NCBI GenBank assembly: GCA_017511925.1
Contig: JAFWHS010000014.1
Span: 62,001-126,000, forward strand
DNA length: 64,000 nucleotides
DNA from: Candidatus Saccharimonadota bacterium
Lineage (GTDB): Bacteria; Patescibacteriota; Saccharimonadia; Saccharimonadales; Saccharimonadaceae
Reading direction: 5' to 3'
The notes under the pieces were generated by a model. The model ran no database searches, was not told where the DNA came from, and was given only the letters and a program-made list of their open reading frames with translations. Position 1 is the first letter of the stretch. Every line of letters begins with the position of its first letter. Below are positions 34,219-40,805 of this stretch, piece by piece. Both the position numbers and the translations under genes were made by a program.

Positions 34219-34306
34219 TATATCATATAAGAAGTAAATTTAAAACCCTGCACCATAAACTAAATTTTTTCTTCCATTTTTAAAATAATTATGCTAATAT
34301 GGGGTC

Positions 34307-35073
34307 ATGGAACCAAACGTGGGAAACGGTCAACAAAATAGCCAGCCAAATATGGCCGGCCAGTCTTTCGGTGCTCAACGACCTCCAATGCAAAATACAG
34401 CGACTGGGGGGGGGTATATAGTAGTCAACCTACGGCGCCAATAACTAGCACGCCGCAACTCACTACTCCGGTTTATTCTTCGGATCAAGATATTGTATTA
34501 CAAACAAGCAATGGTGGTCGCAAAAAGTGGCCATGGATTGTTGTCGCCATGATAGTTTTGATTGCGGCAATTGGCAGTGGGCTAGCGTTCTTGTTGTCGT
34601 CCAGTCAAAAGTCGCAAGAAATAGAGCCGCTAGACGGCTATGTACATGATTTAATGGAGGATTCATATAGTAAGATAAATAATATACAGCAAACATTTGT
34701 AGAGGCAAGAGATGGCGAATATTCATCGGAAGGGCTCTTTTCGGAGGACGCTAAAAATTACATTAACGAAATGGGCGTCACAATGGAAAATTTCTATAAT
34801 GAAGTTTCCGCTATAGACCTCTCCAGAATCACCGTGCCATTGGCTAAAGAAAATCTCGAGAGATTAAAAGCGAACCTAGATCAAAATATCAGCGCCTATA
34901 CTAATACGGTAGACTTATATAATCAGTATTACGATGATGGCACATATACTGACGAAACTACCGTTCAAGACATTTTCTCTATATATACCGATAATGAAGA
35001 ATTCACTAGTATATACTATTACGAAATAATTGGCGATTTAATCGCGGAGTTGCAAAATGCAGAAGAAGAATAA
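34307..35073 (+). CDS. Single-pass membrane protein, reading frame broken at a run of nine G
   Basis: From ATG 34307 a Gln/Asn/Pro-rich frame runs into a run of nine G (34406-34414) and meets a stop soon after. A -1 shift there (or one extra G) joins it to a frame that stays open to 35073 and gives ~255 residues. The joined protein has a disordered cytoplasmic N terminus (~80 residues), one membrane helix (KKWPWIVVAMIVLIAAIGSG) and an outer domain rich in acidic residues. A TAATAT box ends 6 nt before the ATG, supporting that start. The alternative ATG at 34549 would begin inside the membrane helix and is unlikely. First gene of a four-gene envelope cluster; function unknown. Confidence 0.65.
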
Positions 35074-36628
35074 AAAAGTTAAGATTGCTGCGCTTTTAGT
35101 GGTTATAGCTCTAACGATAACAGCTTTTGCAACACCTTTCCGAGCTTATGCTGAGTTTTTTGAGGAAGGTATAGAGTTAGATATAGACACCTCGACCATT
35201 AATTTGGCAGATGCTTGGGGTCAAATTAAAAATGCTGCCATCATACATCTTGTGGCCCAGAAAATGAAAAAATGCATAGAGATCGACCCGAGTACGTATC
35301 GTGAAGTGACGATGCAAAATCAGAGTAAAGAAACGATGTTGATATCAAGAGACGACGTTGTAGACAAGGGGTTATTTTTCAGTCATGACTGGTCTTACAG
35401 AGAAAATAGAGTTGCTGTTGGCCCGTGGCTATCACGGATTATCACGAGCAACAAAGAAAATTTTACAGACGAAGGAACAATTAGGTGTCCTAGTAATAAT
35501 GGAGAGAATGGTAATATTTCAAACATGTTTGTATATATCCTTAATCATTACGGAGAGGAAGGTTTGCCAAATAATATAGAGGAAAACCCAGAGACCACTC
35601 GGCAAGAGCGCTTAGAGCTAGCCTGTAACGGTACAGAGGCTGGACTTCTGTACCCAGTAGGTTCAAATGACTGTTCGAAAGCGGAAAAATATGCAATGTC
35701 GTGGGTGAAGAAAGATGAAAACGGCTCAATTATTACTCTCAGAGGAGAGAGCTATGCTAAACAGTTATATCAAGCAATGAAAGAACGGTCAGGCAATAAT
35801 TATATCTTGGATTGGGATTCATTGGATAGGTATAACGGTGTGGACGGGTATTATCTATATAGTAATGACTATAAGTCTCAGTGCGGAGAAAACTTTCGCA
35901 CTGACGTCACGGATTCTACGGATAATGCGTATAGGGGTTATAGGATCGGGAACGATGGAGTTATTGAAGCCGGACACTATATCATTAATGAATCAACAAA
36001 CACGGCTAGGGCATCTTTTGTCGTTAGCGAAGAGGAGGGCGAAACAAGGACCTGTACTCAATTAGTTGACGGCATGAATAGGCATATAGAAGCCTATGTA
36101 AGGAAAGTCAATTATGAAATTTACAACATCTGCAAAGCCGGTACCGATGAGGCCATCGAAGATAAAAGAAAAGAACTACAAGAAAAATATCTCAGTAGCG
36201 AAAACGACAAAAAAGCTGACGCTGAAGCCGTAATTGCTGAATATGATAGAATACAAGCGGAAAACGAATACGTAGAAAAAACAAAAGATGACGGCACTAA
36301 AGAATTAATTTCTGTAAAAACCACATATGCTAATAATGACTATATACCAGAGTGGGAAATGTCATATTCGTATGGATCAGGACCGTCATGGGAAGAAATG
36401 ATTGATGAGGGTAGTATCCCTACTGATTTTATCTGGGCCTGCCGCAGTCATCTACCGTATATAGATGTAATCGTAGACCAGGAGGCTGATTTAGCCGGTG
36501 CCCTCGAAGACAAATTTAAAGATAAATGTATGGAAGCTTTAGATCTAGGTTGGTTAATATGTCCTGTTATTAATTACATCTCCGACGCAGTCGATGGATT
36601 AATGGACGCAGTGGATGGGCTTATATAA
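35057..36628 (+). CDS. Secreted/envelope protein of the T4SS-like cluster
   Basis: I do not recognise this 523-residue protein. It has a signal peptide or N-terminal anchor (residues ~9-32, ending ATPFRAYA), a long hydrophilic region with several cysteines that could form disulfides, a Glu/Lys/Ala-rich coiled coil (~370-420), and a C-terminal hydrophobic stretch (LGWLICPVINYISDAVDGLMDA). It overlaps the preceding gene by 17 nt and the VirB6-like gene by 14 nt, so the genes are translationally coupled and the products probably work together in the envelope. Confidence 0.65.
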   Translation: MQKKNKKVKIAALLVVIALTITAFATPFRAYAEFFEEGIELDIDTSTINLADAWGQIKNAAIIHLVAQKMKKCIEIDPSTYREVTMQNQSKETMLISRDDVVDKGLFFSHDWSYRENRVAVGPWLSRIITSNKENFTDEGTIRCPSNNGENGNISNMFVYILNHYGEEGLPNNIEENPETTRQERLELACNGTEAGLLYPVGSNDCSKAEKYAMSWVKKDENGSIITLRGESYAKQLYQAMKERSGNNYILDWDSLDRYNGVDGYYLYSNDYKSQCGENFRTDVTDSTDNAYRGYRIGNDGVIEAGHYIINESTNTARASFVVSEEEGETRTCTQLVDGMNRHIEAYVRKVNYEIYNICKAGTDEAIEDKRKELQEKYLSSENDKKADAEAVIAEYDRIQAENEYVEKTKDDGTKELISVKTTYANNDYIPEWEMSYSYGSGPSWEEMIDEGSIPTDFIWACRSHLPYIDVIVDQEADLAGALEDKFKDKCMEALDLGWLICPVINYISDAVDGLMDAVDGLI

Positions 36629-38585
36629 GATGGTGATGAATAATATGTTGCAATTTGCGAGCGTTTTAAGCCTAGATTCTAGTTTCTTTACTAGTGGTGA
36701 TACCAGTCCGGCATATTTGGTTTGGCAATATATACAAGGTTTTTCCAATGCAATAATTATAGTAATACTAATTTTTGTTATATTTTCCCAGCTGACCGGT
36801 ATCGGCATAGATAATTATGGTATTAAGAAAATATTGCCTAAGCTTATTGTGACTGCAATCCTGATCAATCTATCATATATAATTTGTCAGATCGCGGTGG
36901 ACCTATCGAATATTATAGGTAACGGATTGAAGGGTATGTGTACTGGTATCTCCGATAGTGTATGGGATGCTTTAGTTGCGAACGGGACCGTTAGCGCTGC
37001 AGACAGGACGGAAATTGGTTTCTCTGGAATTTTTGCTGCCCTATTTGGCGCTGGAGCTGGAGCAGCCGTAGCTGCATCTACTGCTTTGAGCGTAGTTGCT
37101 GTGGCTGGTAGCGCGCTATGGTGGATACCTCTTTTAATTACTGCAGTTATAGGGTTGATATCTATTTTGATGTTTTTCGTCATCTTGGCATTAAGAAACA
37201 TAATAACTATTGTGTTGGTCGCTATCTCTCCGCTCGCGTTAGTTTGTTATATTCTACCAAATACGCAGAAGTTATTTAATAAATGGCTAGACCTTTTTAA
37301 GGCTATGCTTGTTATATATCCGGTCTGTGCCGGGCTATACGGTATCAGCAAGTTAATGAAAGTTATTACGTATAGTGCAAGCGGAACTCATATACTTATG
37401 GTAATGGTCGCCATGTTGTCTACTTTTGTGCCATTTCTTGTTGCGCCATCGCTCATTAAAAAATCACTCAACGCCCTTGGTAACTTGGGGAGTCGAATGA
37501 GTAACTTAGATGAACGTCTGAAAGGCGGCATTCGAAGTGGGCAAGATGCAATTAAAGGTACTGCTAAGTATCAAGATGCATTGCGCACTACTTCTTTAAA
37601 AAGAGCTGAAGGTCGAGTTGCTAAATTTAATGCTGCAAAAAGAAAATTTGCAGAACTTAGTAGCAAAGGAAACTTATCCAGAAGTGAGCAGCGTCAGTTT
37701 AACAAAGCAAAAAGGATGTCTGGGAACTCAGACAATGCCAGACAAGCTAGTTTGGCTAATAGACTCTATGCAGCTAATCAACAGGCGATCAACAAAGCTC
37801 AAGCCGAGGATACTGAAGCTCAGCGTATAGCTATGCGGGAAGATACTGGCGATTATGATGTTAACTTGATGGGCGCTCAATTGGGCCAAATGCTGGATAA
37901 TATAGATAACGGCAAGGAACTTTCCGCGGCAGATGAAAATAGATTAAATGCATTATTCTCTCAACTTTCTACTCAAAGTGGTGGCGCTAAGAAAATCTAC
38001 GAAGCTGTTAACAGTCGTACTGGCAAATCCGCACAGAAAATCGGGTCCATTATGGGGTCAAACGATAAGGTTCGTGCCGCTCTTGAAAGCAAAGGACGCA
38101 GTGTGGCTGCGCGTATCGCCGATATTGCTTCCGGTACAATCTCAGCTAATACCACGCAAGACGCGTACGAAGGTATGAATAATAATTATCTCCGATTCTT
38201 AAGGCAGCAACGTGCAGCTGGCCAAGCCGGCACCATGGAAAGAGTATCTGAAACTGACTGGAAAGCTAGCTCTGGTGACAGCGATAGCACTACGGTCATT
38301 CAGAGTATCGCAAGTGACGTTCTCGACAAGGATAAAGACCTCGTCACTCAGTCTGGCGGTGAAGTGGAGAAACTTGTAAACGCCCTCAAATCTACACCGG
38401 ACGGCCAAGCTCGTATTGATCGAATGGCAGCAGATTCCAATCTCTACGCCCATGGTGATGTCGCAGAACGTGTCAGACAAACAATTCTAAATAGCGCTAC
38501 GCCACCGGCGCCATCCGAACCAAAAACTATGAGGATTAAAAACATGAGTAGTGGTGAGGAATATGAATTTAAAGTGGATAAATAA
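36615..38585 (+). CDS. VirB6/TrbL-like polytopic membrane protein
   Basis: The 656-residue protein has about seven membrane helices in the first ~300 residues, including LRNIITIVLVAISPLALVCYILP and LFKAMLVIYPVCAGLYG, a pattern typical of VirB6/TrbL inner-membrane channel components of type IV secretion. The remaining ~350 residues are hydrophilic, rich in Gln, Ala, Lys and Ser, and likely cytoplasmic or disordered. I take ATG 36615; ATG 36630 is an alternative. The following gene begins 3 nt after the stop. VirB4/VirD4 ATPases are not in the window. Confidence 0.65.
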   Translation: MGLYKMVMNNMLQFASVLSLDSSFFTSGDTSPAYLVWQYIQGFSNAIIIVILIFVIFSQLTGIGIDNYGIKKILPKLIVTAILINLSYIICQIAVDLSNIIGNGLKGMCTGISDSVWDALVANGTVSAADRTEIGFSGIFAALFGAGAGAAVAASTALSVVAVAGSALWWIPLLITAVIGLISILMFFVILALRNIITIVLVAISPLALVCYILPNTQKLFNKWLDLFKAMLVIYPVCAGLYGISKLMKVITYSASGTHILMVMVAMLSTFVPFLVAPSLIKKSLNALGNLGSRMSNLDERLKGGIRSGQDAIKGTAKYQDALRTTSLKRAEGRVAKFNAAKRKFAELSSKGNLSRSEQRQFNKAKRMSGNSDNARQASLANRLYAANQQAINKAQAEDTEAQRIAMREDTGDYDVNLMGAQLGQMLDNIDNGKELSAADENRLNALFSQLSTQSGGAKKIYEAVNSRTGKSAQKIGSIMGSNDKVRAALESKGRSVAARIADIASGTISANTTQDAYEGMNNNYLRFLRQQRAAGQAGTMERVSETDWKASSGDSDSTTVIQSIASDVLDKDKDLVTQSGGEVEKLVNALKSTPDGQARIDRMAADSNLYAHGDVAERVRQTILNSATPPAPSEPKTMRIKNMSSGEEYEFKVDK

Positions 38586-38588
38586 ATC

Positions 38589-40805
38589 ATGCCAAAAATT
38601 GCCGTATCCAAGAAAAACATATTTTCTAAACTTAAATCCAAAAAAGCCGCCATTAGTGTCATAGTGATACTCTTTGGTGGCCTCATCTTGGCAATAATTG
38701 GTCTCTTTGCTTTACCAATTTTAGCAATAGCTGCCATAGACCAAGGGCTCCAAGATTCATTAGGCTTTACGGACACCAGTGCAGTTCTTGAAAAGGCATC
38801 AGAATATGTGACTAAGGAACAACTGAGTAAAGGAAAAATCCGCAGTGACTATGCGGCAGATCTAGAACAAAATGGTATATTGGTCGGCCAGGTTACGGCA
38901 TCTGGCGATTTTGTCCGTACGGATACTTATATTGCAGATTTAGGCTCTCCTGAAATTGCTTCGAATAATTTAGCCTACATAAAACAAGAAGGCGGCGAAC
39001 TGGCCATTCTGTTTGATAACGAAATTATTACGGCTGACAATTTTATTGCCAAACTTGAATCTACGCCAAAAATGTATGCGGCTTATTCAAAAGCCTTAAA
39101 TATTACTGCTAGATTTTATTATAGCGACGAAGTAGAAAAAATATATCAAAACTTCGGCTTATCCCGCAATAATTTCTCAAGTTGGCAGTATACCGGAGAT
39201 AAGAAAACTGATCGTGAAAGTTTCAACGATATTGCCAAACAGATTCTGAGCGCCAATTTCGATTTAGACCTTAACGGATATGAAGAAGAAAATCCTGAAC
39301 CTGAAAATCTTCAGACGTCCGTTAAGGGTAATGATGCCACAAAATTAGTTAACGAAATTTCAACAAAAACCAAGTCCGATGACAGTACTACTGCCACCAA
39401 GAAAGCTACCAGCCTCCTTAATGCTTCGGTTTCATCTAGCGAACCATATACGGCTATTAAATCATTTCTCCTTACTGAAGAAGTTATTCAGCGTGCCAGA
39501 ATAGACGGAGACGGCCCCATAGATGTGGTAATGGATGTTTTATCTAGCTCCAATACAGCTAAAGTATATGACGTAAGCGCTGGGGCAGAAGCTACTATTA
39601 AAGATTCTATTTTAAAAACCAATAATTTTATATCAGCCGTGTCAAATTCGTCTTTTTCTCAAGACGAAGCATTAGATTATTCTAGAGACAGAGTTATCAA
39701 TACATCAATAAAAGTAGATTCAGACATCATCAATAATACTAAAGAGTCTGCTAGTGGAGATAAAAAGTTTAATATTCTCACCACAATCAAAGGTGATAAA
39801 TCTGCAAATTCTGCAACCATAGCAAAAAACACCACTAGCATCGATAACGTCTTCTATAGTGACCCAATAGACACCTTCGAAAGTTCTATTGGCGGTAATC
39901 GCATTGTTGAGGGCGGAGCATATCTGTCTAATCTTATAAACCAAAACGTATTGGGGGCCATGCCGTCAGATAATGCGCAAATTTCTAATTACAATGCAGA
40001 AGTTGAAGAAGTACTTGCACGTCGTGCCGAGGCCGAACGTGCTACGCTTAGTCCATTTGATATATCTTCCAAAAATACTTTTTTTGGGAAGCTAGTCAAT
40101 CAATTCGCTATATCATATTTAAAAAATTACTCTAGCTCAGTTGCGCCAGCGCTTGCTGCTGTAGGTGAAACCGTAGCGAGTTCTGCGGGGAGTTTATTCA
40201 GTCAAGCTAACGCCGAAGGTAGCCAAAAATATCGTGATTTAAACGGAGATTGTCCTACTGCAAACAGCGTATATAATGTAGAGGGCGACTTATATTGTAA
40301 TACACATAATACGATAAGCACAGATTATATTAGCTACACACTAGACGATTATAAAAACAGCTCAATCGGGTCTATGATTAAAGACGACGGAGAGATAAAA
40401 GATAACAGTGAGTTGGCCGAGTTTATTACGCTCGGTACTGAACGCGAAGTTACTGTCGGCGTCGAAAGTGCTGAAATTTGTGAGAGCTGGAAAAGTTTTC
40501 ACAATAATGGCGTCGGAGGAGTTTGGCGAAAGATTGTAAGTTTCATATCTGATATGCTCGGACTCTACGAATCATGTAATGGCGTAGACTCCAAAGTTGC
40601 CACCGGTGCAAAGTATACTATAAGCTCCAGCAATCCAGAGAATGAAAAAATGAAACTATTTTCAAGTTATGTTACGTATCAAATGGTTTCTTCCCTCATT
40701 AGTGATGCCAAGAACCAAGTCACGGCTTACAAAGAAAGATATCATGCCGAACATCCACTCATAAGCGATGATTCCCTTGCGAGAAACAACATCCCCGAGA
40801 ACTAA
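38589..40805 (+). CDS. Large membrane-anchored protein of the T4SS-like cluster
   Basis: This 738-residue protein has a short basic N terminus (cytoplasmic), one strong membrane helix (~17-45) and a long outward region rich in Ser, Asn and Asp. Cysteines occur only near the C-terminal part (DLNGDCPTANSV, DLYCNTHN, EICESWKSF, LYESCNGV), suggesting a disulfide-stabilised domain at ~545-680. No family is recognised. It follows the VirB6-like gene after 3 nt and is the last gene of the cluster; a surface or cell-contact role is inference. Confidence 0.65.
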   Translation: MPKIAVSKKNIFSKLKSKKAAISVIVILFGGLILAIIGLFALPILAIAAIDQGLQDSLGFTDTSAVLEKASEYVTKEQLSKGKIRSDYAADLEQNGILVGQVTASGDFVRTDTYIADLGSPEIASNNLAYIKQEGGELAILFDNEIITADNFIAKLESTPKMYAAYSKALNITARFYYSDEVEKIYQNFGLSRNNFSSWQYTGDKKTDRESFNDIAKQILSANFDLDLNGYEEENPEPENLQTSVKGNDATKLVNEISTKTKSDDSTTATKKATSLLNASVSSSEPYTAIKSFLLTEEVIQRARIDGDGPIDVVMDVLSSSNTAKVYDVSAGAEATIKDSILKTNNFISAVSNSSFSQDEALDYSRDRVINTSIKVDSDIINNTKESASGDKKFNILTTIKGDKSANSATIAKNTTSIDNVFYSDPIDTFESSIGGNRIVEGGAYLSNLINQNVLGAMPSDNAQISNYNAEVEEVLARRAEAERATLSPFDISSKNTFFGKLVNQFAISYLKNYSSSVAPALAAVGETVASSAGSLFSQANAEGSQKYRDLNGDCPTANSVYNVEGDLYCNTHNTISTDYISYTLDDYKNSSIGSMIKDDGEIKDNSELAEFITLGTEREVTVGVESAEICESWKSFHNNGVGGVWRKIVSFISDMLGLYESCNGVDSKVATGAKYTISSSNPENEKMKLFSSYVTYQMVSSLISDAKNQVTAYKERYHAEHPLISDDSLARNNIPEN

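Follow-up and report, generated by a model that had tools for sequence, protein, structure and literature searches.

The window, the 64,000-nucleotide stretch of Candidatus Saccharimonadota DNA analyzed here, contains a four-gene cluster in which the first gene, referred to here as the head gene, is followed by genes encoding proteins of 523, 656 (VirB6/TrbL-like) and 738 amino acids. The reading frame of the head gene is broken at a run of nine G, and the coordinates of the gene, its promoter, the tract, and the rest of the cluster are given in Table 1.

Table 1. Features of the head gene, its G9 tract, and the downstream cluster (window positions).
Feature	Position	Strand	Support
Extended -10 element TGCTAATAT, (nearly) leaderless promoter	34292..34300	+	present in 5/5 aligned orthologs
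Upstream frame, ATG to premature stop, 45-residue Gln/Pro/Gly-rich tail	34307..34444	+	
G9 homopolymer tract, 99 bases past the first base of the ATG, -1 frame shift	34406..34414	+	
Downstream frame: remaining tail, one transmembrane helix (~34528-34596), helical extracytoplasmic domain	34414..35073	+	homologs; AlphaFold2
Second gene, 523 aa, secreted/membrane; start overlaps head-gene end by 17 bases	35057..36628	+	
Third gene, 656 aa, VirB6/TrbL-like polytopic membrane protein	36615..38585	+	relatives in 170/174 genus genomes
Fourth gene, 738 aa, N-terminal membrane helix, no family	38589..40805	+	

A TAATAT hexamer (34295-34300) is followed by six bases and then by the ATG at 34307, and the frame that opens there ends after 45 residues with a stop codon at 34442-34444. 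An extended -10 element (TGCTAATAT, TGCTAAAAT or TGCTATAAT) lies immediately 5' of the ATG in every one of the five orthologs aligned, which argues that ATG 34307 is the correct start. The frame starting at 34414 is open for 219 residues up to the stop ending at 35073, and it encodes the membrane helix and the C-terminal domain. From its upstream stop as far as the tract, this downstream frame contains no ATG, GTG, or TTG, and its earliest ATG (34549) is within the membrane helix. A change in the length of the G9 run would shift the reading frame of a gene that begins 5' of it. An earlier note on this DNA had described an ATG frame with TAATAT six nucleotides upstream, joined to the membrane-domain frame solely by a -1 shift at the nine G, and both descriptions were confirmed, coordinates included. 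Neither Pfam nor NCBIfam places the head protein in a credible family. AlphaFold2 models it as a membrane helix plus helical bundle with a mean pLDDT of 70, and when the model was compared with the PDB by Foldseek, 473 matches reached E<=10 and none reached 0.001.

In the remainder of the cluster, a GGAG is also found 5' of the ATG of the second gene. The 656-amino acid protein encoded by the third gene has no match in Pfam; one of its homologs (L399) matches Pfam TrbL at E 0.0095, under the cut-off. VirB4 was not found beside the VirB6-like gene in the cluster. The window genome has its best VirB4-like match on contig C19, with a score under the curated cut-off, and a weak VirB4 match (E 1.3e-4) is present on C24, approximately 39 kb before the tract and just outside the window. 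The cluster had previously been called T4SS-like, a label that the homology of the third gene to VirB6/TrbL supports and that the lack of an adjoining VirB4 weakens; it is a reasonable and fair but weak assignment. If the label is correct, the tract may control a secretion system.

The window genome (G000) is a draft assembly of 832,473 bases in 24 contigs. The head protein has matches in seven of 60 genomes, its own genome counted, and with a profile built from five sequences 151 of 174 genomes give matches; many of these matches are confined to the tail and membrane helix. Among the 30 best profile loci, 27 lack any G/C run of at least nine, and with the tract missing from most orthologs, the switch is not conserved as a feature of the head gene. 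The other three of these 30 loci, from the window (G9), G014 (C9, L008), and G168 (C10, L146), are all out of frame, and the tracts of G014 and G168 both start 58 bases past the first base of the ATG. A fourth tract-bearing ortholog, from G001 (G9, L066/L219), came from the tract survey described below; it is the first gene in its cluster, has the same plan of tail plus membrane helix, and is in frame, so that three of the four orthologs are out of frame and one is in frame. The window and G014 have a frame offset of -1, G168 one of +1, and G001 one of 0, and the coding-strand base of the tract is G in some orthologs and C in others. Across species, then, tract length differs among relatives, with open and closed states in both the gene family and the cluster. 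An IMG/VR search with the flank of the window tract gave no matches, and close relatives of the locus were found neither in phage records by DNA nor among genome contigs by peptide patterns.

The regions upstream of 99 VirB6-like matches, 409,286 bases in total, contain four G/C runs of nine or more: those of the G014 and G001 head genes, and one each in G099 and G144. The latter two are in the same non-head cluster gene with shared flanks, which has an open G9 in G099 and a closed G10 in G144. All four runs are located in N-terminal tails, although the first 180 bases of ORFs make up 13% of these regions. A third-order Markov model of the regions predicts 1.75 G/C runs and 44.7 A/T runs, against four and one observed; upstream of VirB6-like genes, long A/T runs are avoided and G/C runs are not. 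The window genome has a second frame-broken gene, with a C10 tract (L001, 1501-1510, G000:C4) that is out of frame. The ortholog of this gene in G001 (L073) has a C10 at the same place and is closed, and a G/C run of at least seven is absent from the other 22 of the 24 family matches. A further tract of the window genome (L003, G9) is in frame.

The nine-G pattern is present in 49 of 80 genomes of the genus, and 72 distinct tracts drawn from the genomes listed in that search were surveyed. Twenty-one of the 72 lie between -35-like and -10-like boxes, compared with 1.3% of random positions. When the -35/poly-G/-10 pattern was searched directly, it gave 56 matches (one site, in G126:C35, was counted twice owing to overlapping matches) spread over 34 of the 174 genus genomes, against none for the reversed control pattern; elsewhere in the order, four of 182 genomes contain it. 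The spacers are 14 to 20 bases long, except at five sites with a spacer of 9. At four places in one genome (L117 and other G126 sites), TTGAC abuts the G run with a spacer of 9, and in L077 (1501-1519, G001:C6) a G19 run is found 5' of a -10-like TAGAAT. One match, at 1672-1698, is common to G027 and JAFWHT010000036.1 (Candidatus Saccharibacteria bacterium RGIG5751, sheep ileum). The poly-G promoter pattern has no match in the window genome; a promoter-type tract was considered for the window locus, where TATATA follows the run, and rejected, as there is no good -35 at a suitable spacing.

An ORF of at least 80 amino acids starts within 300 bases of each of the 30 poly-G promoters examined (L105-L134). 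The genes behind these promoters often look secreted. With a looser cut, signal peptides are predicted for 18 of the 30, against 22 of 54 window ORFs (p 0.07), and with a stricter cut for 16 of 30 against 16 of 54 (p 0.03), which points to a weak enrichment. About eight of the 30 (L107, L108, L112, L114, L119, L121, L127, and L129) have in common a short N-terminal motif around W/Y-[DE], and only L108 and L114 are otherwise alike. The motif could be a common targeting signal.

Further tracts of the genus are located within signal peptides. A pair in G031 has an identical signal-peptide start, closed with G10 in L088 and open with G9 in L090; the flanks are identical for 30 bases upstream and 82 downstream, and the regions further upstream differ. 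An orthologous Dam-type methyltransferase gene has G12 in G083 (L042) and G10 in G070 (L092), the former in frame and the latter out, with the Pfam Dam match spanning the tract in G083. The poly-G promoter pattern is also found outside the group, in at least 117 stretches from many gut Clostridia and Bacilli, from Streptococcus, Treponema, and other bacteria, and the promoter device is therefore common outside Saccharibacteria. In L278-L357, the poly-G spacers are flanked by TTGACA and TATAAT, in gut Clostridia/Bacilli, Streptococcus suis, Treponema, and Streptobacillus.

How far chance accounts for these tracts depends on the class. In the window, there is one G/C run of nine or more against a third-order Markov expectation of 0.07, and no A/T run of that length against an expected 10.7. 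G/C runs of seven give four match positions, compared with 2.07 in shuffles, and 20 of 100 shuffles reach four. Over the whole window genome, the three G/C tracts of nine or more are near chance by number. Chance was thus rejected as an explanation for the promoter class and not for the number of tracts in the window genome, and the position of the tract in the gene together with the states of its relatives are stronger signs than tract number. Among coding tracts, 12 of those at N-termini are out of frame and six are in frame, compared with two and eight for internal tracts, a contrast (one-sided Fisher p 0.023) that is only indicative, since the counted tracts include some that are related to one another as orthologs or paralogs. 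Leaving out three tracts found by homology gives p 0.058. The 2:1 ratio of out-of-frame to in-frame tracts near starts is what would be expected of random phase. The counts were sorted by hand because the mechanical frame caller missed L001, L015, and L073 and reversed the states of the Dam pair L042/L092, which were judged by the Pfam Dam match; ambiguous tracts, among them L016, L039, L072, L082, L094, and L104, were excluded.

We consider it likely, from comparison of these sequences, that the G9 tract of the window is a phase-variable contingency tract. The best surviving alternative, although an unlikely one, is that the tract is real and its length was miscalled or settled by majority vote in the consensus, the gene being intact in most cells. 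The window genome is, after all, a draft of 24 contigs, and homopolymers are the usual place for errors, as a Saccharibacteria genome paper (PMC9600527) says of nanopore data. However, the 96 A/T runs of 6-7 that lie within intact window ORFs indicate an assembly otherwise clean at homopolymers, orthologs in separate assemblies are likewise out of frame, and the out-of-frame tracts are concentrated at N-termini. A majority vote would in itself imply variation. Much less probable is a fixed frameshift in a decaying, permanently broken gene: the window frame is indeed broken and most orthologs are intact without a tract, but the 219 codons past the tract are open and still match those of relatives, and the shift sits in a long G run with both states found among relatives. 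Equally improbable is a programmed frameshift, raised as an alternative in the earlier note, in which ribosome or RNA polymerase would slip on the run to make a constant share of protein; a nine-G run can slip, and transcriptional insertions and deletions are the subject of one paper, but slippage in one direction is disfavored by ortholog offsets that are not constant (-1, -1, +1, and 0) and by a coding-strand base that is either G or C.

The MutS_V domain was found in none of 60 genus genomes, whereas the same search was positive in 11 of 14 control genomes, which suggests that slippage at the tract would go uncorrected by the mismatch-repair route. The earlier claim of phase variation is well supported by comparison with the tracts of relatives and by the lack of a detected MutS; the window locus itself entered the comparison as a single copy. 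The mechanism that we propose is that, during replication, the G run would gain or lose G's by slipped-strand mispairing, which, with no MutS homolog found, would probably escape mismatch correction. Each change in length would bring the N-terminal tail into frame with the membrane domain or take it out of frame. G9 is probably the OFF length: in this assembled state, translation from the leaderless ATG would end at 45 residues, with no good later start before the membrane helix, whereas cells whose tract has a suitable length would make the whole single-pass membrane protein. Given the 17-base overlap of the second gene with the end of the head gene, the early stop may reduce translation of the second gene, and the VirB6-like cluster may likewise be translated less when the head gene is OFF. 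We infer that switching occurs in living cells, and it may be used in contact with host bacteria.

A broader proposal, which we hold with even confidence for and against, is that this animal-associated genus of Saccharibacteria has a phasome, in which poly-G tracts occupy promoter spacers, signal peptides, and the N-termini encoded by T4SS clusters, their mutability preserved through loss of mismatch repair. Small populations would thus display many combinations of surface and secreted proteins to their host bacteria. Phase variation has been studied mainly in animal pathogens, and Saccharibacteria live on bacteria and have very small genomes. If the proposal is true, mutable tracts that vary the proteins of the surface and of a secretion cluster could explain variable infection of hosts within a clone. 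The poly-G loci would then provide a list open to amplicon sequencing in co-cultures, and the lineage, seemingly without MutS, would offer a natural setting in which to test contingency loci.

Contingency loci with poly-G or poly-C tracts in reading frames are known from Neisseria (HmbR/HpuAB) and from Campylobacter. The window tract resembles them in being a G/C homopolymer of at least nine in the 5' part of a coding region, in a gene for an envelope protein, with open and closed states among relatives of the gene. It differs from them in that its bearer is a Patescibacterium without detected MutS, the locus is known from one copy, and the gene family is unnamed. Other genomes of the genus resemble the promoter-spacer loci of Neisseria porA, with G runs between -35 and -10 and abutting the -10, whereas the window tract is in a reading frame and the window genome is without the promoter kind. 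Within the candidate phyla, a hypervariable gene is described from a Gracilibacterium (PMC6851277), with a coding repeat of 9 bases that keeps the frame. The likeness is slippage-type variation in a candidate-phylum bacterium; unlike the window tract as proposed here, that repeat changes the length of the protein and is not an on/off switch. With the patescibacterial type IV secretion system (PMC12102498), the window cluster shares a membrane protein that is VirB6-like by homology and differs in having no adjoining VirB4 and a head gene without a family. No report of poly-G switching in Saccharibacteria or Patescibacteria was found among the openly licensed papers searched, and the window tract is probably a known kind of element in a new place.
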